Assembly (NCBI RefSeq): GCF_027942865.1 | Contig: NC_134510.1 | Location: 24,049,209 to 24,113,208, forward strand | Length of the DNA stretch: 64,000 nt | DNA from: Odontesthes bonariensis | Taxonomy: Eukaryota > Chordata > Actinopteri > Atheriniformes > Atherinopsidae | Reading direction: 5' to 3' | In this document: positions 3,101-62,738 of the stretch, in pieces | How positions within the stretch are numbered: position 1 is the stretch's first letter | How the letters are laid out: each line of letters begins with the position of its first letter | Position numbers and translations under genes: made by a program | Notes under the pieces: generated by a model | Database searches by the model: none | The model's input: only the letters and a program-made list of their open reading frames with translations | What the model was told of the DNA's origin: nothing

Positions 3101-4691
3101 GTCAGTGGCAGTAAGCTGAGCGTGAGCCCTACTGATAGACTGGTCATTTTGAAGAATGATGTCACAATTCTTGCGTCCCACCACGTACTCTTTACCTGAG
3201 AGGAGGTAGTGAGTCTCACCTGTGAGAGACAGACGGCAGGAAGTCAGCTGTCTCGTGCAAAACCAAAGACTGAACTGCGGTTTTTACAAATGTGGGTCAG
3301 TTTTACTGTGAAGTTGTAATAACTGGTCAATACTTTAAATTTTTTTATTTATTAATTTTCTATTTATCGTTAATCTTCTTATTCTCATTGTGAATTTGAT
3401 GCCAGCACACATTGAGTTGTGCTGTTGAAACGTGCTTTGGCACTGGCTTGCTGAAATAAAAAAAAAGGACTTCCTTAAAAATATGTCAACTGCATGGAAT
3501 GTGTAGCTCAAAAACCTATTTTATTACCGCATTAAGGGTGCCGTCACATACGTGCAGGTTGGCAAGCCATCGGCACTAACCCGTCCCCTTATGCCAACAC
3601 AGAAGCTTGATTTTTAACTGCGCTCATAACAAGCTGTGTTGTACCGCTCCTTTTTAGTTTTGAGGATGTGTCATCCAGAATCTCCAAAAATAATTAAAAG
3701 CCTTCAATCAATTTTTCTTTGCATGATTGGGTTTTTAAGCTTGCAAATGTGGATGCGTCAAACTGCCTTCACTGATTACAGTTCGAAGAAGTGTCCACAG
3801 CACTGTGTGTTGGATACAGAGATGTTTCAATGATTTATCATGACATCAACAAATTCATTGCTACTCTATTTTCAGATCTTGAAGTGTTGAATCATTTGCT
3901 CAGGATGTACTTCACAGAGGGTTGATCCTCTCCCAACCTTTACTTCTAAAAGGCTCAGTCTCTCTTTTTATTGTAGCATTCACAGCTCTTCCAGTCTGAT
4001 GTTGTCTCCAAACTGGGGCTGGCATCCAATTAAAAATGGAAAAAACATAATAGCATTTGATAGTTCTTGGTTTTTTTCAGCTTTTGAACCATTTTTAATT
4101 AATAATATGTCAACATTTGTTATTTTCACTATATCGACACTTCAAATATTTTGGAAACTAGTTTGGAAATAAACATTACTCACTGTTTTTCATACATTTC
4201 ATAAAGATATGATCTGCATTGCATACGTTGGTGTATTATCACCATTTAAAACACAATGAAGCATTTGATGAGATTTATATAAATATAAATATGTACTGTA
4301 CAACAGGACAGACTGTATTTGACGATAGACACTCTGAAGCCCTTGTGAGTTTAGAGACTTCTGTGGTTTAACTTTTTTTGCTCACATGTTTTGAGATGCC
4401 AGTGTTGTAATTAGCCATATTAATGAAACATGGCGAGTCCAAAGTTCATCCCATCCACACAACCTCTACTCAAACACATCGCATATTAATGGAAACTTTA
4501 GCAGACCGAAACAGTTTTTATAAGATACAACAGCAGCGGGTGCGGTCGCGGACACCTCCATCTCTTCGTGTAGCGTTTATGGTTTTCAGCTATATTGATC
4601 AAACTTTGCCAAGCTAGCAGCAAGCTAGCTAAAAACGTCAGTCATGATGGAGAATGTTACCTCCAGGCTGCAGGGAAGTCAGTATCCACAT
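108..4691 (-). CDS. nbn: nibrin (Nijmegen breakage syndrome 1), exons 1-7, 3' part outside window
   Basis: Nibrin is the phosphopeptide-binding subunit of the nuclear MRE11-RAD50-NBN complex that senses DNA double-strand breaks and activates ATM. Coding exons on the minus strand: 4661-4691 (start codon 4691-4689), 3098-3219, 1779-1900, 1519-1678, 1323-1426, 1107-1224 and 108-298. All have GT-AG ends and phases join without a stop; exons 4, 5 and 6 (160, 104, 118 nt) equal the human exon lengths as I recall them. The protein shows an N-terminal FHA domain ([20 protein letters not shown], then SKYGTVVN) followed by tandem BRCT domains ([46 protein letters not shown]). Exon 6 must start at 1224: the nearer AG at 1214-1215 would break the frame. 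The rest of the gene, including the MRE11- and ATM-binding C-terminus, lies left of position 1. Family assignment is very secure. Confidence 0.93.
2185..2300. repeat. fish interspersed repeat with (GGCAA)n start, in nbn intron 2
   Basis: A run of GGCAA pentamers (2190-2221) leads into a segment beginning TTTTATTTATAGAGCACA and continuing with a CAAGGTAATTCAAAG stretch. I know this arrangement as a common dispersed fish repeat. Related pieces occur at 15728-15800, 32402-32465 and 53800-53890. It is non-coding; the family name is not certain. Confidence 0.55.
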
Positions 4692-5757: not shown

Positions 5758-6806
5758 CTAAAATAAAGGATCATTGTCAGATTTCCATGGCTGTCCTGCT
5801 GTTCTGAGCCGGCCACGCCCCCAGAGACAGGGCAGTTTATGATTGACTCTCATCACTGCGACGCTGGTGCAAGAGTCAGGTTTCTGAATGATCTCGCACC
5901 AGTCAGGATAGTCCACGGGCTTATATGCACTATGGGAGGGCGGAAAAAAAGTGTCAAATCGAGTCGAGTTTATTTAAGAAACACATAAAAAGTGTGGTAT
6001 GTTTGAAAAAGAAAACAATTAAGGCGGGACAAATACCAAAATAAACTGAAACATACATAAATGTATAAATAAAAGCAATAAAACAAAAAGTAGAGAATGA
6101 ATTCATCATATACTATGACAATATGAGTGTCTTTTAAATCACACTCACTGATCGCAGCATCCTACTCCAAAAGGCTCCATGCAGACGCACTGGTAGCAGT
6201 CACTGGTCATCCAGCTCTCTCCGATCCCATACACCTGCCCCATGTGTTCACAGCTCCCTGGAAATGACAGTGAAGTATCCAGATGTTTTACTGGAGAAGT
6301 AAAAGGTGTTCCATTCTTCTGCATTACAAATTGGATGGGAATAAAGAGACACGATAAATGTCCTCCTCGCACAAGGGGGTTAAGATTTTAGATGCAAAAT
6401 TGCTCATCGTATAGAATGGCTTCTCTTATATTGTGATATCAGCAGACACAGTGCGTCAAAGATTCACGACTGCTTTTGATCCATGTAAAGATAAACTGAT
6501 GAACGTAAAAGAAGAATCTACTGTGAAACACACAAGTCTGGTTTAGTACAAAAATACACATTTGTATCTAATCAAGGAACAAACAGCCTTAAAAAAAAAC
6601 AGTATTTATCCAATATTTACTGCTGCGTGATAGGTGCACGTATGATCTAAGAGGAAACTTTATCTTCTGTAATGAACATTCACATACACACACAGAGTAC
6701 CTTTTGTATTGAAGAAGCATTCACCACTGTTATACGCAGAAAAACATGGCAGACTGGCTCTCAGGAACAAGAGTGAAGCCAAGAGTACTCCTGCTGTGTT
6801 TGCCAT
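5758..6806 (-). CDS. msmp: microseminoprotein, MSMP-like secreted ten-cysteine protein
   Basis: Three coding exons on the minus strand: 6701-6806 (ATG 6806-6804), 6149-6257 and 5758-5929 (TAG stop), giving 128 residues with phases 1 and 2. The N-terminus is a clear signal peptide (hydrophobic VLLASLLFLRASLPCF). The predicted mature chain has ten cysteines: GEC, SC, DCYQCVC, GCCD, DWC, DSC and LPC, the hallmark of the beta-microseminoprotein family. The middle GESWMTSDCYQCVCMEPFGV and the later VDYPDWCEI resemble prostate-associated microseminoprotein (MSMP/PSMP), reported as a secreted chemoattractant, more than MSMB. It lies in the same orientation as nbn, about 1 kb upstream of it. Orthology to a particular fish msmp copy cannot be settled here. 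Confidence 0.85.
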
Positions 6807-33800: not shown

Positions 33801-36800
33801 GTAAGACCCTTTTTTCATCTCACAGCCAGCAAACGAAAATGTTAAATTCATTCTGCTGAGGGTTAATTTTGAAATCAGAGATCACAAGTTGCACATTTAA
33901 TAAATTATGGTTGTTGAAAGTGTGCTTTAGGCAACTGTGAGGTACATTTGACATCAGACTGAATGCCATATCTGGTTGTTTAACATAAGCACTATGTTCC
34001 AAAATCCTCTGGCCACTAATTCATGTAAAATCCAACAACTTAATAAAAAATAAATCAATCCCCATTTTAAAAGGAGGATTTTGTTTAGTTCTAATGAGCT
34101 GGTTGGATTTGGTTTATTACTGTTTACCCTTATATATGAGGATATAACTGTTTACCCTTTATTTACAGAAGCATGCACATGAAAACAACTGATCAGTTAG
34201 TTCTAATGTGTTTTTACATTTTCCGCAAGTGCTCTGCTCTGCTTTCATTCCATACTTTCTGCTTATGAAGCAAAACTGATTTGATGAGGGGAGGAAAATA
34301 GAGAAAACCACAGAGGACTTGAACTGGCGCCAGACAAAGACCAGCTAGCTATACGCCTTTCATTGATACTTATCTGCTTAGCCTTTAAACATTTCTCACA
34401 GACACACACATACAGATACATGCAACTCCCGAAATAAACCTGTTGGTTCAGCACCAACCTTCTCTCACACCGACTGCAATTCAGACTCTCTCACATTTGT
34501 GGTCAAACAGGCAGACAAAAAAAAAAAAAGACCTTGCTCACAGACACCCACCTTCCTCTGCCTTTGTCTCCTGTGTGTACGTATGCTTAAGTGTCGCACG
34601 AACTACTCATAGACACACTAGTCTAAAAAGCAATCCTCTAATTCAACCTTCCCACCATCACATATAGGCTTCTTATCTGTCAGTATGTGAATTGGGGGGT
34701 AAAAAATGACCAAACTGTTACAGAGTCCATAGAAAACGAAAGTCTACCTTATTTTAACCATACGGTTTTACAAATTAAGACAAATAAATACAACCTCATG
34801 GACAAGGACACATGACATATTACGATGTCTCATTGTTCGTCTAACAAAAATGACCCAATAACGCTGAAGCTTTGCATGAAAAGCTAAGTACAGTACCACC
34901 TTGCTGCTTCCATAGGAATTAAGAGGGTAAGTAGCAGCCGGGTGCTGCTAATCAAAATAACTTGATTTATTGATCATCAGCGAGTGGGAGCACCTCTATA
35001 GAAGCAGTCAGTTTGCTGGTCTGGATTATTCAGGTGTGTGTAAACACAATGCCAAGGAGGAAAGACATCAGCAACGATCTCTGGGAAGTAGTTGTTGCTT
35101 CTCATCCATCTGGGAGGGGTTATAAGTCCATTTCTAAACAATTTATAGTACATCATTCTACAGTGAGAAAGGTTATTCGCAAGTGGAAAACGTTAAAAAT
35201 TGTCAGGAATGGATGCTCCAGCAAGTTCACCTCAAGGTCAGATTGTGCAATGATGACCGCAGAGACTGCAAACTGCGTTTCAGACTCCCCGGGCCCCAGT
35301 TAGCATGTTAAATGTTAAAGTTATTGACGTTACGATTAGAAAAAGATTGAACTGGCTTCTTTGGAAGGGTTGCAAGAAAAAACCCTCTTCTCTCTGAAAA
35401 GAACATGGCAGCTCGGCCTATGTTTGCAAATTTGTGTCTGAACAAACAGCAACAGTTGTTTTATCAGTGTCCTCTGAATAGACGAGACCAATGTGAAGAT
35501 GTTTGGTTACAATGCACAGCAGCATGTTTGTAGAAACCAAAGCAGCACAAACATCTCCTACCAGATGTCAAGCACGGTGGTGGAGGGCTGATGATTTGGG
35601 CTTGGTTTGCAGCCACAGGACCTGGGCACCTTGCAGTCAGTGAGTCGATCATGAACTCCTCTGTATCCTAAAGTTTTCTCGAGTCAAATGTGAGGCCAGC
35701 TGTCTGACAAATGAATATTGTCTGAAACTGGATCGTGCAACAGGACAATGATCCCAAACACAAAGCAAATCTACAGCAGAATGCCTGAAAAAGAGACGAA
35801 TTGAGGTGAAATGCTGTGCTGGGACCCTAAGAGAGCTGTGCATAAATGAATGCTGCAAACCTCAATGAACAAAAGCAACGTTGTAAACAAGAGTGGGCTG
35901 TAGTTCCTCCCCAAAGAAGAGTGAGACTGATAGCGTCATACAGAAAACCTTAAGTTACCTTAAATTCTTGCTGTTAAAACTGGTTCTAAATGAATTACAG
36001 GGTGCACTTAGTTTTTCCACACACTGCCTCTGCATTTTAATTTTTGTTGTTCATCTGAGTTTGTATTTACCAAACTTCAAGACCATATCGTGTTTTATTG
36101 TTTCCTGTTATGTAAAACGTTAGAACTGAGAAAGGCTATACTTTCTATTTCACATGACTATGTGTTGAAGGCTGACCGCTTGTGTTTAACTCTCAGGATG
36201 TGGATGAGACTTCAGGATGTGTCCTATGTCTATATGACCAGGCCAGCTGGCCCACTTGAGGTTGTGATCATGATGTTGCATTTTTAGATAATTCACCTAT
36301 AAAGAAGTAAATTAGTACCTCAGAGTCCTGTTGAAAAAAGTTTAAAAAAGTGACTTCAGTATTTTATCGTTTGTATTGGGGATTTTATATTACTGGATCA
36401 TTCTTATTGGTGCGTTAAGCTGTATTTTTGTGGTATTGTTACATAAACATGTTAACTCTTCATATCACTATGAACTCCAACTAATTAGTGGAGAAGTAAA
36501 ACTTTTATTTTTCTATTTAATTTTAGATGTAGTAAAAGTATACAGGAGCAAAAATTGAAGGGCTGATGTTAGGCCTAAAGACGCCGCTTTATTAAATGTA
36601 ATAAAGCTATTAAATGAACTAGGATTACAAAAGAAAGGTACCAGTGTGACATTTTTTGTCTGGATTTAATATTTGATTTCGACCGTCTGTTCCTGCCTCT
36701 ATAACGATCACTTGGCTGATATGGAATCCAGCCTGTGTTTAGAAAGTGTTGCTTATTGATTGTTTTTCTTTCTCCCTCAGGAGGTGCCGTGTCCAAGAAG

Positions 36801-44200: not shown

Positions 44201-47200
44201 TGAATATTGATATCAGTCATCTTTATTAGCATGAGCTATATTTTGTAAGTGGTCAATCTTTGTCACACGCCTCTGCTGTGTGCGCGTACTGGTTATTATT
44301 CACTCTGAGATTGGCTGTCCTCTGCAGAAACCTTCACATGATCCTTGTGGCAGCAGAAAAAGAGGGCACACACTGACACACTAACACACACTTACCAAGA
44401 AATCTGACACAGTTATGCACGGAAATGCATTTACTACTGTATAAAGGCGACACTGGCGCGTAAAAGTTTGTATCGCGGAGGACAGTCACACCTTCGGCGC
44501 TGTTGTGGAAGGAAGACAGAAGATGACACAAACAGATAAAAGATTCTTGTGTTATTTGTGTCATAGTGCGGCATGCGTTCATGCTGTGTGACATAATCGT
44601 GTGTTAAATGTGTTGAGATATTCTTTTTAGAGCACACACAAGACAGCTCTTAAACATTTCTGCTGCTTTCGTGAAGCAGACTGTCAGAAAAGCTAAAGGC
44701 TGAGGGGTGTGAGAATTTACAGAGATCAGGGGCACGGGGGGAGGTGAGAGGGGGATGGCTATTACTGGCAGTGATGAAGGAAAGAGTGCATTACTGGCAG
44801 TTGTGTCCTTTATGAGCTAGACAGAGAAGGATCACAAAGTAAAGAAATGACATGAAAGAGGGACAGTCAGAATGAAAGAAAAGCCAGACAACCACTTAAA
44901 AGGACTCTGAGGTTGACACCTTCATATTCTCCGCCAAACTCCATTTGCAAATATTCCACGTCCTCAGAAGACTCTCCTCTTGTTGCATTTGATGTTATTT
45001 TGTTCATTATTATTAACGCAAGAGGTGTTTAAGAGGAAAATACCTTTGGTTTATGATGGCCACACAACAAGAAATAGATGTTCAAGGGAAAGTACAGCAT
45101 AAAGTGCAAGTTCTCATTGTGGGAATCACTTTGAAGTCTGTAACTTTGGGTGAAACTATGCAGTATGTTAAGCTGCAAGTTAGCATATTTACACACAAGC
45201 ATAAGCTCTTTGATTTTGAATCAATTGTAGTAAAGAATGTTCTTTGATATTAATAAATTGCACATTCATTGTTTACTTAAAACGACAAACTCAAGATTGT
45301 GTGAATGTAGGAGGAAACTTTTTAGTCTTCAAGCAGATTTCATATCAACCAGTTATTTGGTGATTATGCCTTCTATTGATCTGTCTGTTGTGACGCCAAA
45401 GATCCAGTTGGATTTAACTTTGTTTCAACCAACTCGTCTGCTTGTGGGTTTTCTTGGCGAGCGTATAAAGGGCGACGCGTTCTGCATTCGAAAAATGCTA
45501 ACTTTGCCTTTTCTACTTTTTATCTTCTCAGCCCAGATTGAAGTTATCCCATGCAAGATTTGTGGTGATAAGTCCTCTGGAGTGCATTATGGAGTCATCA
45601 CTTGTGAGGGCTGCAAGGTGAGATACAGCAGACCAACATGCATTTGACACACTCGCACACGCAACATCACCAGACTGAACCTTCCCTCCTTCTGCCGGAC
45701 CCACGAGGAATTTGAGACCATTTTTGTACTTTTGCACCTGTGCACCGCTGATAGTTATAGATGGATTTTCATCTTTATTTCAGGACATATAAGTGCAGTA
45801 TTAACATGTCAATGTCCCTCAATTTTCACATTTTCTAAAGTAACAGTAACCAAACAATTTCACGCATTAGAGAGATATTTTTCTAAAATAGATTTCTGAG
45901 ATGTTCATGGGATGCATCACTCTCCAAACACTTATGCCCCTGACTGTATTTGTCCATAAAGTATAAAGCTATTCATACCAGCCTTTTAGCAAAGCCTAGC
46001 ATAAATACTGTAAGAAGGAAAGAGTTATTCTGGTGTTTAAGTAAAGCTACAACTTCCAGTACCTCTAAAGCTCAGTAGATATAACAATACATCTTATGGT
46101 CATAAAGACGTTACACAGGGTTGTTAGTTAAACTGTTTATCAGCTAAAAACAGTTATTTCTTGAAGTCTGCGATGGTTTGATTCAATAGGATGAGTTAAC
46201 AGGTTGTTGCGCCAGCTTCTTGTTGAACGGCCGAATATAAGATTGCTATCGATCACCTCATCTTACTTTCTGTCAGAAAGCCAAAATGTTGAAGTCTTCC
46301 TTTGACCCTCAGAGACAGGATACAATGTGGGTCAGCATTAGCTGTTAGTTTTGAATGTTCAAACTTGCCTGGTAAGTAACGTTCAGCGCAGGAATTTGAA
46401 CTATACGGTGAAAGTTCCTCTGTTCATCGAGCAGTTCATCTTCAAACTCTCCGGCTCAGTACACATCTTCGACACAAATTAAAAGATCATTTTTCAAATC
46501 ATCAACAATCCCTATAGCAGACTTTTGTGTATAGTTTGTGTTAAATTGTATTGTTTCCTGTTCAATACTCATGCTTGTGTTCCGCTCTGTACCCCCTCAG
46601 GGATTTTTCCGGCGCAGCCAGCTGCCCACCGTATCATACTCCTGCTCCAGGCAAAGTAACTGTCAGATCGACCGAGCCAGCCGCAACCGCTGCCAGCACT
46701 GTCGACTGCAGAAGTGTTTGGCTCAGGGCATGAGCAGAGATGGTGAGGAAAGACAGATCTTCACCATCGTCACCCTTGATCCGTCATGATCCATCATCAG
46801 TTACCTGTTTTTGTGTCGATTTATTTTTGTTTGTTTTACTCTCCCCAGCTGTGAAGTTTGGGCGGATGTCCAAACGTCAGCGCGACTCTCTGATCGCTGA
46901 GGTGGAGAGGCACCGACAGCAGCAGCAACAGCAACAGCAGCAGCAGCAGCAACAGCAGCAACAGCAGCTTCAGGGAGACACTCACGTTGTGTTGTCCTAT
47001 CCCACCAAGAACCGTCAAGACCGCTCCCCGCAGCTTCTTCAGCCCATGGCCGCGGCCTACTCCTACGCTGGAGACACCGAGCTGCTGCCCTACGCTGCTG
47101 ATGTTCACTCTTACCTTGTGTGCTCCCCTAACGAATCACAGGTGTCTGGAATGATCTACCGGGGCTCCGAGGTCTCTCCCACATCGAGATCCCAAGGCAG

Positions 47201-50067
47201 GGGGGACAATGCTGGACACCCTGATGTAAGAGGTAAGGCACTAAAGTGGGAGCACACTTCAGCCTACGCACGTTTCACCCTCCTATTCTGCTAGTTCCTT
47301 ATTTTCTTCTTCACTTTTCTGTGTTTCAGGGTTTGACTCCAGGCAGCAATCGCTTGATCTGATGGCGATTCATCCCTTCAGCCCTCGGGAGGATCCGTAC
47401 AGCCTCTATCCTCTCTCTCTGCGAAACATAGGTGAGCAGTCTGCACGGTGGGGTGAAATGTGCGTTTTATTGTTACTGCTATATTTATGAGTGCCTTTGC
47501 TCATCCTCAGAGGAGCTGTGTGCCAGCATCGTGCGCTCCCACAGAGAGACCAGCCAGTACAGACTGGAGGAGCTTCAAGCTCTCAAATGGAAACTGTTCA
47601 GCAGAGAGGAGATTCAAGCCTACCAGAGCAAAGTATTACAGCCCTGATTTCTGTTTCCTCCACCAATTTTTTTTACATTTTATTTCCCAGGCTTCTTCGT
47701 GCATGATTCAGACTGCCTCAAAACAAAACATGCCTTTTCACATGTCTAGATGTTACTTTTGTCTGATGAATCAAACAGAAAACTGAGAAAACTTCTTTTA
47801 TCATTTTCCCCCTCCTACTCTCTCTTTGATCACCAGAGATCAAAAGGTGGAGGGGGGTTAGTTAAATGATGTGATAAAATACATAAACTTGAGCAGTAGT
47901 TTGAATTGTTGGGACAGTTTGTGTGGAATTGGTGAAATATTACTAAGTTTATTTTGTTGTTTTATGTTCCAGAGGGACTTCTATGACTCTATGTGTTTGT
48001 TCTCCACTCTATTTTCCAGACAGTGGATGATATGTGGCAGCACTGTGCCATCCGACTGACTGATGCTGTACAGTATGTGGTGGAGTTTGCGAAACACATC
48101 CCCGGTTTTCGTGTGCTCAACCAGAACGACCAAATTGCCCTCTTAAAGGCCGGTGAGTTTCCACTCACGGTCAAGATGAACTTTAATCGTGATGATGGGA
48201 CTTGTTCTTACTCTCTTCCTTTGTTATCTTTTTCCTCCAGGCTCCATGGAGGTGGTTCTGGTCAGGATGAGTCGCTTCTTTAACACAGAGAACAATACTG
48301 TGCTCTTTGATGGGAAATTTGCTGGAACTGAAGTCTTCAAGTCTTTGGGTGAGGATTTCACCAAAGGGTCTGAAAGCAGTTGTGAAATGACCAGAGTAGA
48401 TATTTATGGTGACTTATCGGTGCTCTGTGCTCTCTTTTTCTCGCAGCATGCAGTGATTTAATTGCAGCAGTGTTCGATTTTGCACATGGCATATGTGCTC
48501 TAAAGCTGACTGAGCAGCAGATCGCTCTCTTCAGTGCTTTGGTGTTAATCAACGCAGGTAAGATGAACTCAGGCTTCCTCCCACTCACATTTCAGTTTGC
48601 TCTTCGGTTTGGAAAATCACAAAAAGTGGAAGAAGGACACTTATTTGCAGTTGTGGCATTTGTCACAATATTTAATTTAATTTACATGATGGAAATAGAG
48701 TTTTCATTGCTATTTTTCCAAGATTCATTTAGAAGATCCATTTAGATTTACATTGATGATCCTTCATGGTTGAATCTACTTAATCAGCCAGAAAAGCTTC
48801 CTCACACTCACACCAAATTTTAGCTGACAGATGTATTTTCATCTGGAAATCTACACTTTATCACATTTTGCTTGTGGTTTCCTTCATTCAGTCTTTTATT
48901 TTTTCATCCACAATCTAGCTTCTCCGCCACCTACTGGTGGTTAAGTGACATTAAAGAGACTGTACTACATTGATTTACAAGGTCATAATTCTACTTTTGG
49001 AGTCCATCAGAATAAATTTAAAGTTATAAAAATATGTTTTTCTCATGCCGTACATTTTTGCAGCCCCTCTCATTACCTTCTATATGACACCTTCATGATG
49101 AGACCTTGTTTTAGCCATGTAATGCTACTAACTAGGCAGACATTATGCACATGTGATGTGGCGAAATGAGGGACAGTGAGCCTGGGTTAAAAATGAGGCA
49201 TTTCAGATAGTTCAGGTGTTTTTTTGTGGGAGATATAAATGGACTTTGGGTTTTCTCACCTTTGGAAAGGAATAAAAACCTAAAAAGCATGATATGACCT
49301 CTTAAACAAATGACAGAACAAATGAGGATTGTTCACACATAAGTACCAGGATTAAACTTTATGCTACAGTTTCCATTCTTTCATTAGATGTATCTGCTTT
49401 TTGTGTAGATCTCAACAAGGGGTGGAAATAAATTCTAACACTTGGAGAGAGGCAAGGCAAACCCTGGATGGGTCACAGGTCCATCTCAGGGTTAAAAAGA
49501 CAATTAATACACACTTTCACCTGAACTTTTGGGACACAGAGGACAGTAAAACTCCACACAGGAAGGCTCTTCTCAACCAGCTCTTTCAAATCCACATCCT
49601 TCTTGCTCATAGGGCAACAGTTCAGATCACTGCATCTGGCAAATACATCCAATTAAAAACAAATTGGAATAACCGCTTTTGGAATTGTGTCTTTCTGCGC
49701 AGATCGTCCATGTCTGGAAGACAGAGGCAGAGTTCAGCGAGTGCAAAGAAGTGTTGAGCTAGGGCTTACACACATTCTGCACCGAGACAACCAGGAAGGT
49801 CTGATGCATAAGGTACGTCTTCACCGATCTGGGATATAAGCACCTCTACACTTCTGTCCTCGCTCAGACTTCTAAAACTGCCTGTGTGTGTCTGCCTTAC
49901 AGCTGTACCAGCAGATGACAGTGTTGCGTTTGCTGTGCAGTCTGCACATGGAGAAGCTGCGCTGGTTCAATCAGCGGTACCCGCTCACTGCTCACTCTCT
50001 GTTTCCTCCACTCTACAAGGAGCTGTTTGCGTCTGAGGCAGAGCTGCTGCCAGGGACCACTCACTGA
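30887..50067 (+). CDS. rorc: RAR-related orphan receptor gamma (nuclear receptor)
   Basis: ROR-gamma binds RORE half-sites as a monomer and activates transcription in lymphoid and circadian programmes. Coding exons: 30887-30938, 36781-36810, 45532-45617, 46601-46742, 46849-47232, 47330-47431, 47511-47632, 48020-48152, 48241-48348, 48447-48557, 49703-49812 and 49903-50067 (TGA), 514 residues, all phases consistent. Zinc finger 1 has Cys35, 38, 52 and 55 with P-box CEGCKGFF; finger 2 has Cys71, 77, 87 and 90; the CTE is KFGRMSK. A 17-glutamine run (127-143) opens the hinge. The ligand-binding domain carries [56 protein letters not shown] and the AF-2 helix LYKELF (497-502). [17 protein letters not shown] marks the ROR family. 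Introns 1 and 2 (5.8 and 8.7 kb) leave room for an alternative promoter. Which teleost rorc copy this is cannot be decided here. Confidence 0.93.
32402..32465 (+). repeat. fragment of fish interspersed repeat in rorc intron 1
   Basis: Begins CAATTCAGTTGTATTTATAT and continues with AGCCAAATCCCAACAATGTC and CATCTCAAGGCACTTCC, a layout I know from dispersed fish repeats. Truncated. Confidence 0.5.
34900..36075 (+). mobile_element. degenerate Tc1-like transposon in rorc intron 1
   Basis: An open stretch near 35040-35290 starts [13 protein letters not shown] and holds the Tc1 DNA-binding region ([26 protein letters not shown]). Further on, in another frame near 35735, [13 protein letters not shown] matches the segment around the second catalytic Asp. 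The frame is broken several times by stops and shifts, so the transposase is dead. The right end near 36000-36070 (GGGTGCACTTAGTTTTTCCA) looks like a worn Tc1 terminus. Both boundaries are approximate and no TA duplication could be pinned down. Confidence 0.65.
37045..37099 (+). repeat. (CA)n with ACAT units, rorc intron 2
   Basis: A CA dinucleotide run passing into ACATAC repeats. Confidence 0.9.
38316..38374 (+). repeat. (CA)n microsatellite, rorc intron 2
   Basis: Almost pure CA repeat of about 55 bp. Confidence 0.95.
41148..41270 (+). repeat. (GT)n microsatellite with duplicated block, rorc intron 2
   Basis: Two similar blocks, each with GTGCGTGC followed by TGTAAAGGTGTTG (about 41160-41200 and 41229-41265), are separated by a pure GT run. 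Confidence 0.9.
46917..46967 (+). repeat. rorc: CAG/CAA polyglutamine tract in rorc exon 5
   Basis: Seventeen consecutive glutamine codons, mostly CAG with CAA interruptions, encode rorc residues 127-143. Confidence 0.97.
49440..49580 (-). repeat. worn, reverse-oriented copy of the retroposon seen at 9.4-10.2 kb
   Basis: In rorc intron 10, AAACCCTGGATGGGTCACAG and, 100 bp on, AAACTCCACACAGGAAGG are reverse-complement matches to blocks of the 9426-10201 repeat. Strongly diverged. Confidence 0.5.
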
Positions 50068-53336: not shown

Positions 53337-54092
53337 ATGGACTCGGCCTGGGCGCTGCGCTGCTCCACCGCGTTGGTGTTGGTTTTCCTGAGCTCCGCAT
53401 CCAAAGGTCAGAGCAGTTGTGTGTCTGCTTTTTGCTGTCAGACGCATGAAACTGTTGTTTGTCTCTTGCTTCTTGCTCAGGTTCAATGTGTTCGTCGCAA
53501 GTGCTGTGAAGTGGTCATTTTTTTTGCGTTGACCCCGCAGAAAAAGAGGCTTTTACTTACATAATGATATTCCGTGTTTTATCTCTTCTGTTGGGATGTG
53601 AAATAGACTTTTTTTCCCACTTTTTTCAAAGTCTTGTGAAAAAGTCGCTGGACTTCTGATGGTTCTATCTGATTTTTTTTGGTTATTGTTATTGAATTGG
53701 TCTACTTTCAGAATAAGATTTTGCACGCAAGTAACAAACGTGGTACAACATTCACCACCTGCAACAGTAACAGAACATTACTCTAACAGTTGACTATCTG
53801 TGCAGCACTTTTCATACAAACTGAACGCGGCACAAAGTGCTTCACAGAGTGCCACTGGAAATAAAGTAAACAATTAAAACGAACAGTGAACATCCCATCT
53901 TACCTGATCGGTAATGCCATGGAGGATTGAGTTCTGAGTAACTGTCTTTTATAGGAGCCAAAGAGCTGGAAAAAATTGGAAATTAAATAAACAAAAACTC
54001 TAGTTAGTAAAGCAATAAGACAACAAATAAATTGATAAATGAATAAAAGTCAGATGAAAACCAAGCACAAGATTAGAACTAGAGGAAACTCT

Positions 54093-54143
<51 letters not shown>

Positions 54144-57100
54144 CTCCAACTATCTATATGTTTTCTGGCAACACTTTCCAAACTTTCAATCTAACTGTCA
54201 TTGAGCGCTTTCCATTGTAGTGTCACTTCAGTTTCTTAAGGTGAATATTTCTTAGATTGTTGGCAGCCTCTCAGTGTTGTACACATTAAAATATGATCAC
54301 AAGTTTCATACCTTTGTCCCTCTGTGTACAACTTCCCAGATGAGGCCATGTTAGAGCAGCGTGATGTCACATTTGACCTTGACAAGCTTATTCAAGGTAT
54401 GTGTCTGTGTATATATGTGTGTGCGTTCACATATTAGTGCAGTATCTCCACAAGGACCAATTTGAGCGTTTGGGCAGCATTCAGTCAGCTCTCACCACTT
54501 CAAGAGGCCTTTAAAGGGTCAAGACTTAAGTTTGAGACATTGTTAGGTTTGGTTTTCTTGGCAGGAGGAGCCGTATTTAATCTGTGAAAACACCTGTGTG
54601 CTGTTTTCTGTGGCACTGGAGGGACTTTACCCAAAGTTGGAAAAGATAAACATTGTCATGTTTTTCTTATCTCTTGAGAGTTCGAATTCTCTGAAGTACT
54701 TCTCTGAGTTTAGGGTTAAGATTTTTATGGTTTTGCATACTACACAAGGTATGAATGCAGTTTAACTTTCTTCTTTGTGTTTTACTGTGTGGGAACTCTT
54801 GAAAATGATACATTTTCGAATCACACGATGCGTTTCAGGGTTTCAACAACCAGAATCCTTTATGCTGCAGAAAGAGGTAGACTTGGCAGATATTGATCCA
54901 AAAGGTACGGTTGATCTTCTTGCCCTTTGTTATGACCGTGTTTGTTCTGAAATGGTCATGAAAACTCTATTCTTTTTATAATTCTTTTTTTTTAAAGAGT
55001 TCCCCATGCAGCAGATGATCGTGGATCCACCAGACCATTTGATGAGAGGTAATTCACCCACCCATCCATCCATGTCTATCGGCAACATTAAAGCAAGCAC
55101 ATTTTCTTAAATATTTTATTCCATCAGGGGAATCCGTACCAGGAGTCTTGACACCAAGAGGAAGTATGTATCTTCTTTTCTCTCCTCTTTTGTAAAATTC
55201 ACATCTGCACCACCTCCAACTACAAACGTATCAGTACACAGTCTGATTCCTGTCTTTTCCTCAAAGGTCGACCTAGATTTGGACCCCGTTCTTTCCCTAG
55301 CCTTGAGCAGTACCCTGTTCAGTTTCCCCTTAGCCGACCGACGTCTGACAATATCCAAGCCATCTGTCTCCAAGGAGACCATCGCCCGCGCTACCCTAAC
55401 TCTTACTTTCCGAACTCTGGTTTTGGCCAGCAGAGGCGAAGGGCTGCTGCTGTGAATAATGCAGAGGCCTGGTTTAGCACATGCTGCAAAGAGAACCAGA
55501 CGTCGGAGACAGATGTGGTGCTGTGTTGCGCCACTCAGGCGGTAAGTTTTTCACAACAGCTCTCTTAGCCGATTCAGCAGTTTTTTCTTTAACTATGCGT
55601 CAGTGTAAAATGACAAAAGGTATCCTGTAGGATGTTAATGTAATTGTTCATCTTGTGGTGTTGTTTTTTTTCCCCGTTTTGCTGCTGAAGTTTTGGCTTT
55701 TCAGAATTGTACAGACAAGACACACAACCTCGCAAACTAATGTTTCATGTAAAAATGACACTGAACTTACAGGTGGAAAAGGGCCTTCATAGGTTTTAAT
55801 GTTATTATTATTATTATTGTTAGCTTCCTGTTTTTTTTTTATTATTACAGATTCCTAGAAGCTGTAATGTAGCCAGCAGAATTACTCTGAATATAAACGG
55901 AGCATGAACCGTTGTTGGTGCCTGCATTTTTCTAACAAAGTTGAAGGTCTTTGAGTGTTTTAAGTAAATAAGCCACGCCAGACAAAACAGACAGACTCTG
56001 GGATGAGCACCAGTCAAGATGGCAGAGGGCAAGAAACATCCCTGTAACAAAAAATATTTCAGGGAATAGGTGAAGCAGCCATTCAGTGTTAGATTAAAAG
56101 CATTTCTGTTTGTTTATAGCTTGGGCTAAAATGTGTCTTTTAACTACATAATTGAAGCTGGTCTCTTTACTTCGGCATGCAGGCTCAGACATGCAGGCCT
56201 CATGCCAGAATCGGAGCATTTAATTCATTTACCCTAACAGTGCTGCTGTCTATTTTTTTCTATACTTACTCCAGTGGGAGCTGTCAGTTGAATTATTCTG
56301 TGAGGAGGACGGGTCGGTGAAAGATCGGCTTTACCACTGCTGTAAACGCAGAGGCACTGATAGACTAAGCTGTTTCAATGACGACGCTTCAAACCCAAAC
56401 TACGAGGCAACAGAGGTGCTCCCAGTGCCGTCGCTTCCGTCAGCTGCCAACTTCATCTTTGAGCCCAACAACTGCCAGAGGTTGGTTGAAATGATTGAGA
56501 GTGGTGCTTTTTGACAGCTTTTGACTAAAACTGAATGTTTGTGATGATATAAAGGGGAAGAAACCCAGAAAACAGTTGCTTTAGAAGCAAGTTCTGGGAA
56601 AAATATATCTGGAAATGCTCTTTGTTTTTAAGAAACAGGAAAAACTAAATTGAAAAGTTTGTTCTTTTAAAAAGTTGTGAGTGATTAAATTCCTCTGATT
56701 TATTTTTTCTTGTTTTACTGCATTTGCTGAAGACTAATAAGCCCAGCTGTTTTATGAACTATCTTACCTTTTAGGAAAGTAAAACAAGAAATCTATTTTC
56801 TTGTCTCCTCTGTTTTGTAAGGTTTTGGGTAGCGTTGGGCATGCAGCAGATGATCGTGGATCCACCAGACCATTTGATGAGAGGTAATTCACCCACCCAT
56901 CCATCCATGTCTATCGGCAACATTAAAGGAAGCACATTTTCTTAAATATTTTATTCCATCAGGGGAATTCGTACCAGAAGCCTTGACACCAAGAGGAAGT
57001 ATGTAACTTCTTTTCTCTCCTCTTTTGTAAAATTCACATCTGCACCACCTCCAACTACAAACGTATCAGTACACAGTCTGATTCCTGTCTTTTCCTCAAA

Positions 57101-60100
57101 GGTCGACCTAGATTTGGACCCCGTTCTTTCCCTAGCCTTGAGAAGTACCCTGTTCAGTTTCCCCTTAGCCGACCGACGTCTGACAATATCCAAGCCATCT
57201 GTCTCCAAGGAGACCATCGCCCGCGCTACCCTAACTCTTACTTTCCGAACTCTGGTTTTGGCCAGCAGAGGCGAAGGGCTGCTGCTGTGAATAATGCAGA
57301 GGCCTGGTTTAGCACATGCTGCAAAGAGAACCAGACGTCGGAGACAGATGTGGTGCTGTGTTGCGCCACTCAGGCGGTAAGTTTTTCACAACAGCTCTCT
57401 TAGCCGATTCAGCAGTTTTTTCTTTAACTATGCGTCAGTGTAAAATGACAAAAGGTATCCTGTAGGATGTTAATGTAATTGTTCATCTTGTGGTGTTGTT
57501 TTTTTTCCCTGTTTTGCTGCTGAAGTTTTGGCTTTTCAGAATTGTACAGACAAGACACACAACCTCGCAAACTAATGTTTCATGTAAAAATGACACTGAA
57601 CTTACAGGTGGAAAAAGGCCTTCATAGGTTTTGATGTTATTATTATTATTATTGTTAGCTTCCTTGTTTTTTTTTATTATTACAGATTCCTAGAAGCTGT
57701 AATGTAGCCAGCAGAATTACTCTGAATATAAACGGAGCATGAACCGTTGTTGGTGCCTGCATTTTTCTAACAAAGTTGAAGGTCTTTGAGTGTTTTAAGT
57801 AAATAAGCCACGCCAGACAAAACAGACAGACTCTGGGATGAGCACCAGTCAAGATGGCAGAGGGCAAGAAACATCCCTGTACAAAAAATATTTCAGGGAA
57901 TAGGTGAAGCAGCCATTCAGTGTTAGATTAAAAGCATTTCTGTTTGTTTATAGCTTGGGCTAAAATGTGTCTTTTAACTACATAATTGAAGCTGGTCTCT
58001 TTACTTCAGCATGCAGGCTCAGACATGCAGGCCTCATGCCAGAATCGGAGCATTTAACTCATTTACCCTAACAGTGCTGCTTTATTTTTTTTTCTATACT
58101 TATTCCAGTGGGAGCTGTCAATTGAATTATTCTGTGAGAAGGACGGGTCGGTGAAAGATCGGCTTTACCACTGCTGTAAACGCAGAGGCACTGATAGACT
58201 AAGCTGTTTCAATGACGACGCTTCAAACCCAAACTACGAGGCAACAGAGGTGCTCCCAGTGCCGTCGCTTCCGTCAGCTGCCAACTTCATCTTTGAGCCC
58301 AACAACTGCCAGAGGTTGGTTGAAATGATTGAGAGTGGTGCTTTTTGACAGCTTTTGACTAAAGCTGAATGTTTGTGATGATATAAAGGGGAAGAAACCC
58401 AGAAAACAGTTGCTTTAGAAGCAAGTTCTGGAAAGAATATATCTGGAAATGCTCTTTGTTTTTCTTATGATCAACAACTCCGGTGAAAAGACAAAACTCT
58501 GACCCTGCCAACAAGATGTCTGTACAGACTAATGCAGTACATGTACAGTGGCAAAAGCAGTGTCACTGTTCTTTCATTGTGTTTTAAGCTCCTTTCCCAC
58601 AAGTCCTTTGATGGGCATTACCGAATCATCAGTCAGTGGGTCTACATGATGAGATTAATTCGATAATAGCTACAGTTGGATAATGCTCCTTATTTGAGCA
58701 AGGGCAATTATCCAAGTATACATGGCGGTGAATACATGGAATCATTGGCACAAAGCATGTCATAAGAAAGTCCAAAGTCCAATTCACCATGTGCTTCGCG
58801 TGTATACATGAACTTAATAACTCAGTCTTATTGTAATTTAGCCATTAATCCGATTCTTCACAGTGCTATGTAACCCCACTGAGTGAATTACATTATTGAT
58901 TAAAATCTGTGCTGTAATTAAACAAAAGCAGCAATGTAAACAAAACGAATAAAACAATTTAACATTAGCTTGTGTATGTGGATGATAGGTAGTAGATCAA
59001 TTAATTAATCAGGGCTTGACTGAATATGAATTCTTGGGACTTATTGTGCTGTTTCCTTTAATATTTTGTGTAGGTCAGAGGAAGCATAGTGAAATCTAGT
59101 TATAAAAGTATTTAAACTGGTAGTGAAACTAGATGGCAAAGACAAGTAAATGTAAGTTTTGAAAATTGGGAAATTCTAAGTTGAAAAGTTGAAAATGTTG
59201 TTCTTTTTAGAAATGTTGCAGTGATTAAATCGTTTTCTTGTTTCAGAAAATTATTATTACCAGCTGTTTTATGGACGTTCTCAGCCTTTTAAAAAAAGTC
59301 AAAGCAATACAGGTCCTTCTCAAAAAATTAGCATATTGTGATAAAGTTCATTATTTTCTGTAATGTACTGATAAACATTAGACTTTCATATATATTAGAT
59401 TCATTACACACAACTGAAGTAGTTCAAGCCTTTTTATTGTTTTAATATTGATGATTTTGGCAAAAAAAGTAAAGAAAAACCAAAAATCCCTATCTCAAAA
59501 AAATAGCATATTTCATCCGACCAATAAAAGAAAAGTGTTTCTAATACAAAAAAAGTCAACCTTCAAATAATTGTGTTCAGTTATGCACTCAATACTTGGT
59601 CGGGAATCCTTTTGCAGAAATGACTGCTTCAATGCGGCGTGGCATGGAGGCAATCAGCCTGTGGCACTGCTGAGGTGTTATGGAGGCCCAGGATGCTTCG
59701 ATAGCGGCCTTAAGCTCATCCACAGTGTTGGGTCTGGTGTCTCTCAACTTCCTCTTCACAATATCCCACAGATTCTCTTTGGGGTTCAGGTCAGGAGAGG
59801 TGGCAGGCCAATTGAGCACAGTAATACCATGGTCAGTAAACCATTTACCAGTGGTTTTGGCACTGTGAACAGGTGCCAGGTCGTGCTGAAAAATGAAATC
59901 TTCATCTCCATAAAGCTTTTCAGCAGATGGAAGCATGAAGTGCTCCAAAATCTCCTGATAGCTAACTGCATGGACCCTGCCCTTGATAAAACACAGTGGA
60001 CCAACACCAGCAGCTGACATGGCACCCCAGACCATCACTGACTGTGGGAACTTGACACTGGACTTCAGGCATTTTGGCATTTCCTTCTCCACTGAGGTGC

Positions 60101-62738
60101 CTTGATACGGCACTCTGGGAACAGCCTATTCGCTCCGAAATTTCTTTCTGTGTCTTACCCTCTTGCTTGAGGGTGTCAATGATGGCCTTCTGGACAGCAG
60201 TCAGGTCGGCAGTCTTAACCATGATTGCGGTTTTGAGTAATGAACCAGGCTGGGAGTTTTTAAAAGCCTCAGGAATCTTTTGCAGGTGTTTAGAGTTAAT
60301 TCGTTGATTCAGATGATAAGGTTAATAGCTCGTTTAGAGTACCTTTTCATGATATGCTAATTTTTTGAGATAGGAATTTTGAGTTTTCATGAGCTGTATG
60401 CCAAAATCATCAGTATTAAACCAATAAAAGACCTGAAATATTTCAGTTGGTGTGCAATGAATCTAAAATATATGAAAGTTCAATTTTTATCATGACATTA
60501 TGGAAAATAATGAACTTTATCACAATATGCTAATTTTTTTAGAAGGACCTGTATATTCCTCTTGAGGATTTTTATTAGAAGGTTTCAGGTAGAAAATTTT
60601 GTGAAACTCATCATCAACTCATAACTGGAAGCTCAGATGGGAAACAGCCTGGTGTGTTGATGAATGTCACTTCACTTATCAGTGAGACTATAAAAAATCC
60701 TGTAAGGTTTAAAAACAGGTCAGTATGCTTTGATAGCCCGAAAAAGGACTTTTAAAATGCATGCAACATGTTAGTCTGATCAAAAATTGTACGAAGTTAA
60801 TCTTCTCAAAACAGCTTAACTAGCTTGAAATGGGCCTTGGTGCTCCGCACTTGCTCGGAAGTTCAATCGTTTTGTAAAACGAGTAACATAAGTGTATGAT
60901 AATGCAGGCTTTGTCTCAACTCTTGGTCACTTAATGCATTTCCAGACTGTCGCTCTGCTCTAATAAAATCCTGATTTTTTTTTTTTACAACCACAAGATG
61001 ATCAGGCCAAAGCACCACTCAAGTAACTTAAAGACAATATCTGTGCAGGTATTTCACCTATGCATAGAAGCCACAGAATGTCTCTCTTTTTTTTCCCACA
61101 GTCCACTGCGTTACATATGTAGACATGCTTTGATTGATAATTTGATTCTCCTCCCGTTCATGTATACTGGGACATGGATGGTGTTCCAATTAAAAGTCCC
61201 AGTTGAGTTGTAACCTTTGCTCAACTCATCTCTGCATGTAACTATTAACTGTGTTTTAAAACATTTTAGATGGTTTTATTCCTGTGTAAAGTCATTGATG
61301 CAGTCTGATTGAATGCATTTGATTGTTCACAATGCAGTGTCATTTGACACAGTGCAAATGGAGTGCTAGACTGAACTAACTTGCATATTTTTGTTGGAAC
61401 CCCCTGCAATGAAACTGCAACTCTTATGAAAGACAAAATGCCACATTCAGACTTTAAGAGGAAGGAAATAAAGTGACCGATCATGAGATGTTGACTTAAA
61501 GTTTCAAAACAGACTTCCTTAATTCAGAATTATTCCTGGAGCTTGAATTAAGTAATGCCTGAACCCTTACTTAATGCATTATACATTACAGGAAACCGAT
61601 GGCTCAGTATATTCCCAGAGCAGGCAGAAGAATGACGGTGGGGAAGCACTTTACTTCCCAGAAACCTGACATCAATTTTCCTCCTGGACGACCCACTGCA
61701 GATAACATTGAATCACTGTGTAGCAACCAGAAGCTGCGTCCCCTCTATAATGTCAAGTGCCTTCCAAGCAATGGCTATGATGAGCTGGCTCGTCAGGCAA
61801 AGACCATTAATCGGTTAGAAAAGGGATTCAAGCAGTGCTGCAGAAAGACGCAGGGCATGCTCAACTGTGCTGACCAGAAGGTAAAACAAGAAGATACTTA
61901 AAAACAGAAAGTTTTGCTTCGCTGAATAATTTCTGATGCCGTTCTCATTTTGTCTTAAAGTGGCGTCAGGAGCTGCACAGGTTCTGCGTGGCTATGAACT
62001 CCAAGCATGAGCCAGTGGATTTGCACTGTTGTTTCTCTCGTGAGAGTGAAGATGATGCGTACAGCTGTTTTCAGACGGCTTCACCAGACCCACAATATAA
62101 CATGACTTCTGCCCCTGAGGAGCTCTCACTTGACAAAATATGTGACCTTCACAATATTATCAAGAAGAGGTAGGACAGTACTGCATCTCTTTTCTTTCTT
62201 TGATGCGTTTCTAAAAAAAACTTTTTGTCAAGAAGCATTCGAATGTGCAGAAATATCTTCCAACTTCAAGTGTATTCGGTGTTGTTATAGAACATTCTGA
62301 ACATATAAGCACAATCTGTAAAAAATCTAATGATGAGTAATAATGTGACTGTGTGTAGGTTACCCGTTGGGGTTCCTCTCAAGACCTTTGTGAGCCAATG
62401 CTGCCCCCTGTCTGAACAAGACACGACTACCTGTTTGGTGCAAAAGGTGAGTTAGAAGGCAAGTGCATCAAATTAAGGCAAACAGAAATCATTTTATGTG
62501 TAATAATGAAGGTTTAAGAGTTATTCCTTTCTTTTATGTGGGTTTGTTCTCTCAATTAAATCAGCTCGATGAAATATCCCAGAACCTGTGCTCATCTGAG
62601 AAGACCTCTTCTCCGGCTGTCCGCCGCTGTTGCAAGATGACCTCACAAGAAGAGATCTCCCAGTGCGTCTCCAAAATTGTCATGAATGCCATCGCCAAAG
62701 CAGCCAAGAAGATGAGGAAAAGGTGCCCCATTTCCTAA
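53337..62738 (+). CDS. ecm1: extracellular matrix protein 1, with tandemly duplicated exons 4-7
   Basis: ECM1 is a secreted glycoprotein of skin, cartilage and vessels, built of cysteine-doublet modules. Single-copy exons: 53337-53406 (signal peptide), 54340-54396, 54839-54904, 54998-55048, 55128-55163, 55267-55541, 56275-56480, 61592-61880, 61961-62169, 62359-62446 and 62565-62738 (TAA), giving 506 residues. Module signatures: RPTSDNIQAICLQG, RPRYPNSYFPNSGFG, AWFSTCCKENQT, VLCCATQAWELS, KDRLYHCCKRRG; then RPTADNIESLC, FKQCCRKTQG, LHCCFSRE, VSQCCPLSE and VRRCCKM. A second set of exons 4'-7' (56822-56883, 56963-56998, 57102-57376, 58109-58314) fits between exons 7 and 8 with all phases kept, adding exactly 193 codons (699 residues in total). 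Whether transcripts include both sets is unknown. The polyadenylation signal is at 63119-63124. Confidence 0.9.
53800..53890. repeat. fragment of fish interspersed repeat, ecm1 intron 1
   Basis: Contains GCGGCACAAAGTGCTTCACA, the mid-part layout of the dispersed fish repeat also seen at 2.2 and 32.4 kb. Low certainty. Confidence 0.4.
54092..54142 (+). repeat. (CTTT)n microsatellite, ecm1 intron 1
   Basis: About twelve tandem CTTT units. Confidence 0.95.
55005..56629 (+). repeat. ecm1 tandem duplication, copy A
   Basis: This 1,625 bp segment runs from within exon 4 to past exon 7 and is repeated at 56840-58463 with only scattered substitutions and 1-bp indels (offset 1,835 bp). Confidence 0.97.
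56822..58314 (+). CDS. ecm1: ecm1 duplicated exon set 4'-7' (in-frame second copy of the first module)
   Basis: Exons 56822-56883, 56963-56998, 57102-57376 and 58109-58314 repeat ecm1 exons 4-7. Exon 4' lacks the original acceptor because the duplication starts inside it. The AG at 56820-56821, after a pyrimidine-rich TGTCTCCTCTGTTTTG, provides a new one and prefixes RFWVALG before MQQMIVDPPD. Entry phase from exon 7 (2) and exit phase to exon 8 (2) both fit, so inclusion adds a second WFSTCC...HCC module without a frameshift. All donors and the other acceptors are intact and no stop has arisen, so it looks like working coding sequence rather than a dead copy. Confidence 0.75.
56840..58463 (+). 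repeat. ecm1 tandem duplication, copy B
   Basis: Second copy of 55005-56629, separated from it by a 210 bp spacer (56630-56839). The spacer itself resembles 59150-59290 more loosely. Confidence 0.97.
58464..59309 (+). other. ecm1 intron between duplicated exons and the Tc1 element
   Basis: Mostly AT-rich non-coding sequence. The segment 59150-59290 resembles the spacer 56630-56780 (shared TTGAAAAGTT, GTGATTAAAT and CCAGCTGTTTTATG blocks in the same order). Confidence 0.6.
59310..60551 (-). mobile_element. Tc1/mariner transposon, internally deleted
   Basis: A 1,242 bp element in an ecm1 intron, flanked on both sides by TA (59308-59309 and 60552-60553). The termini are inverted: left CAGGTCCTTCTCAAAAAATT, right ending AAAATT-like then AGAAGGACCTG. 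Subterminal sequences (GATAAAGTTCATTATTTTC) also mirror each other. It carries transposase remnants on the minus strand and is shorter than intact Tc1 elements (about 1.6 kb). Confidence 0.92.
59589..60222 (-). pseudogene. Tc1 transposase, internal deletion and frameshift
   Basis: The N-terminus (ATG at 60222) reads MVKTADLTAVQKAIIDTLKQ with an HTH (QKEISERIGCSQSAVSRHLS). It then jumps, out of frame, to the C-terminal catalytic part on another frame: VMVWGAMSAAG, then QHDLAPVHSAK with the second catalytic Asp, and SPDLNPKENLWD with the Glu 34 residues later (DD34E spacing), ending at FPTKY. Roughly the middle third, including the first catalytic Asp, is missing near 60100-60115. It cannot make active transposase. 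Confidence 0.85.
60552..61591 (+). other. remaining ecm1 intron before exon 8
   Basis: AT-rich non-coding sequence from the Tc1 right flank to the exon 8 acceptor (AG at 61590-61591). No feature recognised. Confidence 0.6.

Follow-up and report, generated by a model that had tools for sequence, protein, structure and literature searches.

A probably old internal tandem duplication of ecm1 exons 4-7 in Odontesthes bonariensis, with a proposed later homogenisation of the repeated block

When two nearly identical blocks of exons lie side by side within one gene, do they record a recent duplication, or an old one whose copies have been kept alike? The question is raised by ecm1 in a stretch of 64,000 nucleotides (nt) of Odontesthes bonariensis DNA (contig NC_134510.1, positions 24,049,209 to 24,113,208, hereafter the window), where exons 4-7 of the gene occur twice in tandem. 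Our preferred answer is that the duplication is real and internal to the gene, and that it is probably old, with the block having been homogenised at a later time. The divergence between the two copies alone would suggest a young event; a short spacer between them, and the counterpart of this spacer further downstream, suggest an old one. A related question is whether the additional exons could be read, and what protein they would then give.

The repeated block and the spacer between its copies

The last 11 kilobases (kb) of the window contain a fish-type ecm1 gene on the plus strand (53337-62738), whose exon boundaries were placed by eye and then checked for GT-AG sites and frame. Exons 1-11 comprise 1,521 nt, corresponding to 506 amino acids (aa) and a stop, and the inclusion of the second copies of exons 4-7 (exons 4'-7') gives 2,100 nt, or 699 aa and a stop, with no inner stop. 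Both models match the Pfam family PF05782 (ECM1), with expectation values (E) of 2.3e-49 and 2.9e-73 and bit scores of 169.1 and 248, respectively, thus passing the curated cut-off of 25. The matched stretches number two in the 506-aa model and three in the 699-aa model. The exons and the two copies of the block are as follows.

53337-53406, 54340-54396, 54839-54904, plus strand: ecm1 exons 1-3, with the protein start, hydrophobic leader and N-terminal region; GT-AG sites and continuous frame
54998-55048, 55128-55163, 55267-55541, 56275-56480, plus strand: exons 4-7, copy 1, placed by splice-site and frame check
56822-56883, 56963-56998, 57102-57376, 58109-58314, plus strand: putative exons 4'-7', with 193 codons, 10 cysteines and one NQT sequon
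61592-61880, 61961-62169, 62359-62446, 62565-62738, plus strand: exons 8-11, with the second ECM1 repeat and the C-terminal part
55005-56629, plus strand: block copy 1, which starts at the 8th base of exon 4, takes in exons 5-7 and ends a short way into intron 7
56840-58463, plus strand: block copy 2, 98.585% identical to copy 1

Comparison of the window with itself bears out the claim of an earlier note on this DNA that a block of about 1.6 kb is present twice: the 1,625 base pairs (bp) of copy 1 recur head-to-tail as copy 2, the alignment spanning 1,625 columns. The copies differ by one 1-base insertion or deletion and by 22 mismatches in 1,624 bases (1.35%), the latter affecting 6 of 561 coding positions (1.07%) and 16 of 1,063 intron positions (1.51%). 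As judged by the variance of the gaps between them, these differences are patchier than random (P = 0.010). The ends of both copies are sharp, with a novel junction at 56839/56840, and the flanks of the two copies look random-like when compared with each other (P = 0.44 on the left and 0.87 on the right, against 500 draws per side of random window stretches). An origin by recombination between flanking repeats was rejected, the two sets of flanks being unlike and a third copy of the block not being found within the window; further copies could have been collapsed by the assembly.

The evidence on age comes from the sequence that lies between the two copies and from the sequence that follows the second one.

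56630-56839, plus strand: spacer T, 210 bp, supplying the pyrimidine tract and the candidate acceptor AG (56820-56821) of exon 4'
58464-59160, plus strand: one-sided segment of about 697 bp after copy 2, with no counterpart after copy 1, which bounds the near-identical block
59161-60592, plus strand: T', the downstream counterpart of the spacer, defined by alignment to it and split by a transposon
59310-60551, minus strand: decayed Tc1-like transposon of 1,242 bp, flanked by TA at each end, lying inside T' and absent from the spacer

Once the Tc1-like element is passed over, the spacer (56632 to 56832 at the widest) aligns to sequence within 59161-60592. Five scoring schemes gave substitution levels of 14.0, 16.2, 20.3, 25.6 and 18.6%, with mismatches ranging from 23 in 164 to 45 in 176 aligned bases, and the difference from the block (22 in 1,624) has a Fisher P of at most 2.2e-13. 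In each of the five schemes, not one of 300 random segments of the window or of 300 simple shuffles scored as high. Consistent with this, a BLAST search of the spacer against the window returned T' as the best non-self match (E = 3e-6), with the next at 0.005. The first scheme leaves 2 bases unaligned at the left end of the spacer and 7 at its right end, as expected of the end of a duplicated unit. Because its position between the blocks fits and its counterpart stands in the expected order after copy 2, we infer that the spacer is probably the tail of the unit first duplicated, a remnant of the old intron 7. Provided that the spacer does belong to the unit, divergence inside the tract (1.35%) is far below that of the duplicated sequence outside it (14-26%), so that the low divergence of the block is more likely a measure of when homogenisation last took place. 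By the same comparison, the duplication itself is probably not the young innovation that the earlier note put forward as one possibility.

The limits of the near-identical tract point in the same direction. At one end it stops at the border of the duplication and at the other at the 697-bp one-sided segment (the right end of copy 2 adjoins this segment and not T'), a pattern that would follow if non-allelic recombination halts where it meets heterology. The segment may have been inserted in copy 2 or deleted from copy 1, and either fits. No second copy of it was found within the window. A perfect 10-bp inverted pair (58461-58470 and 58760-58769), among the eight inverted pairs listed, begins at its left edge; a recognisable transposon was nevertheless rejected, since the pair is too short, the right edge is unmatched and no second copy lies in the window.

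The transposon inside T' gives a relative order of events: since the spacer lacks it, the element most likely arrived later than the duplication, barring a subsequent loss from the spacer. Its transposase lies on the minus strand in two separate frames, with a DDE_3 match (E = 2.9e-14) and weak helix-turn-helix matches. The terminal inverted repeats are 85% alike over 203 bp, and their 26 mismatches in 201 aligned bases (13%), far above the divergence of the blocks, suggest that the element may itself be old.

Taken together, these observations lead to the following mechanism. An ancestral copying event would have fused a site within intron 7 to one within exon 4, so that exons 4-7 and about 200 bp more of intron 7 were repeated. 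Later, the 0.7-kb segment would have come to separate copy 2 from T', and the Tc1-like transposon would have split T'. Gene conversion or unequal crossing-over would then have kept overwriting the uninterrupted 1.6 kb, leaving a difference of 1.4%, as the short tail drifted. Exon 4', for its part, would be spliced at a recruited acceptor at 56821, yielding a 699-aa ECM1 with three tandem repeats instead of two, beside forms of normal length. Events in which exons are duplicated in tandem within a gene and homogenised afterwards are well known; what would have happened here is of an ordinary kind, in a gene of interest.

Frame, splicing and the added module

Exons 4'-7' add up to 62 + 36 + 275 + 206 = 579 nt, that is 193 codons, with no stop among them, and the junctions 56480|56822 and 58314|61592 are both in phase. 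The frame check thus agrees with the earlier claim of an in-frame insertion between exons 7 and 8. Its companion, that all splice sites are kept, stands for exons 5', 6' and 7' and for the donor of exon 4', and fails on the acceptor side of exon 4'. For exon 4 (54998-55048), the acceptor lies before 54998 and outside the block, which begins at the 8th base of that exon. Since the block starts inside exon 4, after the acceptor, exon 4' needs a new one in the former intron 7, and the 699-aa ECM1 would in turn depend on an acceptor newly recruited there (56821).

We listed 12 AGs between 56740 and 56883, four of which (56779, 56788, 56821 and 56881) leave the frame open to exon 8. The pyrimidine tract of 56821 is the best, with 14 of 17 positions, followed by 56779 (11 of 17) and 56788 (6 of 17), although native ecm1 acceptors score 7-15 of 17 by the same count, which is for this reason a rough guide only. 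Use of the AG at 56881 would leave an exon of 2 nt. Starting exon 4' at 56822 adds the residues FWVALG, these first codons being almost wholly former intron. Other joins are in phase as well (exon 7 to 8, 6 to 7', 5 to 6' and 4 to 5'), so that an ECM1 of normal length is possible whatever becomes of exon 4'. From this arrangement of frames and sites, the extra module would be expected in some transcripts.

As for the module itself, exons 6-7 encode one ECM1 repeat and exons 8-9 a second one, each with 10 cysteines. The two repeats align with a score of 190, compared with a maximum of 57 in 300 shuffles. The C-terminal part, which has 8 cysteines, scores 58 with the first repeat (shuffle maximum 54) and 38 with the second (shuffle maximum 56), and appears only doubtfully related to them. 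In the ECM1 family at large the repeats have a serum-albumin-like fold; for the gene in the window, a sequence search of the PDB gave one match, at E = 0.49, which is unrelated. The duplicate would add the whole first ten-cysteine repeat, and with it an even number of cysteines and an NQT sequon, and would repeat the short exons 4 and 5. At the level of sequence, the frame, the rise from two to three stretches matching PF05782 and the ten cysteines support the extra in-frame cysteine-doublet module that the earlier note had proposed.

Between the two copies there are six amino-acid changes (S>F, G>E, V>A, Q>K, V>I and E>K) and no silent difference. Three of the six coding differences fall within the 36 nt of exon 5 (55128-55163 and 56963-56998), all three changing the amino acid; this clustering was noticed post hoc.

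A bolder extension, which we regard as unlikely, is that in this fish lineage the ECM1 repeats have grown from two to three, perhaps varying between individuals, with an acceptor and six codons drawn from an intron and with continual gene conversion keeping the copies alike. If the three-repeat reading were true, a matrix protein would be changing its valency and not its sequence. If the longer ECM1 is expressed, it would let the effect of repeat number in this protein be studied in a natural setting.

Alternative explanations

Several observations speak against an old duplication that was homogenised and put to use. The alignment of the spacer with T' needs 32-61 gap columns and its share of substitutions varies with the scoring; moreover, two of the five schemes align the spacer only from 56647, one of these ending at 56803. 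The patchiness of the block is less clear when measured by the longest identical run (P = 0.08 only). Terminal repeats of a Tc1-like element may already differ at insertion, which makes them a rough clock. Regarding the splicing of exon 4', use of a competing AG at 56832, 11 bases past 56821, would shift the frame and run into a stop 33 codons on, counted from the junction. Finally, all six coding differences are non-silent, an outcome with a probability of 0.16 without any constraint, so that copy 2 bears no sign of purifying selection. We accordingly make no claim of selection on the extra module, six non-silent differences and no silent one being compatible with no constraint.

The last two of these points also favour the alternative that survives best, and which overlaps with the readings of origin: that the duplication is real but without use, exon 4' being unspliced or present only in transcripts that are destroyed, and the protein being the 506-aa form made through the join of exons 7 and 8. 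This we consider quite possible, although it is not the outcome we favour. The in-phase join of exon 7 to exon 8 adds to its case. In the other direction, exons 5'-7' show neither a stop nor the loss of a splice site, a weak argument, as six changes would leave them stop-free anyway with a probability of 0.77.

Could the duplication instead be truly young, with an age that corresponds to its divergence of about 1.4%? The likeness of the spacer to T' would then be a separate matter, for example two old repeats in the introns. The similar divergence of exons and introns (1.07% and 1.51%) would fit, and so would a patchiness that is moderate by the two measures taken together (P 0.010 and 0.08). 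We nevertheless find this origin doubtful and rather improbable, for in three of the five schemes the match to the spacer spans the interval between the blocks nearly from end to end, its counterpart follows copy 2 in the order expected, and the window contains no comparable match to the spacer elsewhere.

The range of heterozygosity in fish includes about 1.4%, and the divergence of the block is compatible with it; two haplotypes of a single-copy ecm1 laid end to end by the assembly could in this respect look alike. False duplications, most of them haplotypes, made up 4 to 16% of the sequence in three earlier vertebrate assemblies, according to a passage of PMC9516828. Such an artefact is here unlikely, since a rise in divergence from 1.4% to 14% or more at the edge of the block, together with a 0.7-kb segment and a decayed transposon that only one side has, is not what alleles should show, since the window contains no N where gaps between copies are one hallmark of false duplication (same passage), and since the join yields both an open frame and an acceptor. 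The earlier suggestion of an uncollapsed haplotype is therefore weakened by the jump in divergence (1.35% to at least 14%), with no allele-like divergence running throughout copies and flanks.

Other parts of the window carry features apart from this duplication. Upstream of ecm1, at 46535-48280, lie exons of a nuclear receptor (zf-C4 and ligand-binding domain), which from its sequence we take to be RORC-like. A helix-turn-helix fragment of a Sleeping Beauty-type transposase is found at 34974-35300 (HTH_SB, E = 4.2e-14). On the minus strand, 3047-3283 encodes an FHA domain (E = 1.1e-05) of a gene that is presumably nibrin, and 6148-6387 is a cysteine-rich exon whose VWC match of 21 bits is below the curated cut-off of 27.6; judging by its sequence, we assume it to be microseminoprotein-like.

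Comparison with known systems

The gene in the window follows the common plan of ECM1: an N-terminal part without cysteine doublets, two tandem doublet repeats, one in exons 6-7 and the other in exons 8-9, and a C-terminal part that has 8 cysteines. It differs in having exons 4-7 twice, whereby a third repeat could be made. Human ECM1 is found in skin and in other matrix, and its mutation leads to lipoid proteinosis, as stated in passages of PMC12565460 and PMC9777366. Variation by whole exons is described for the human gene in the latter, with ECM1a of 540 aa, ECM1b without exon 7 and ECM1c with an extra exon 5a (PMC9777366). ECM1 also appears among the upregulated genes in a portion of PMC6457430. 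By titles and the starts of abstracts, no exon duplication of ECM1 in fish was found among the open-licence papers listed by the searches, and a pattern scan of viral contigs for relatives gave three matches, none of them confirmed.

With false heterotype duplication, as outlined in part of PMC9516828, the locus shares near-identical neighbouring copies on one sequence. As its hallmarks, that paper names a read depth reduced to half, gaps, discordant reads and k-mers in single copy (PMC9516828). The difference lies in the lack of any N in the window and in the sequence beside the ecm1 block, which is too diverged for alleles.

A parallel in arrangement is offered by the duplicated exons of Dscam, which are likewise head-to-tail copies of exons within one gene. 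Tandem duplicated Dscam exons are treated in PMC3236188, where the term gene conversion occurs 12 times in the text available. Dscam exons are, however, mutually exclusive (same text), whereas in ecm1 four exons have been copied as a unit and the in-frame reading would add them to the protein, replacement being in phase as well.

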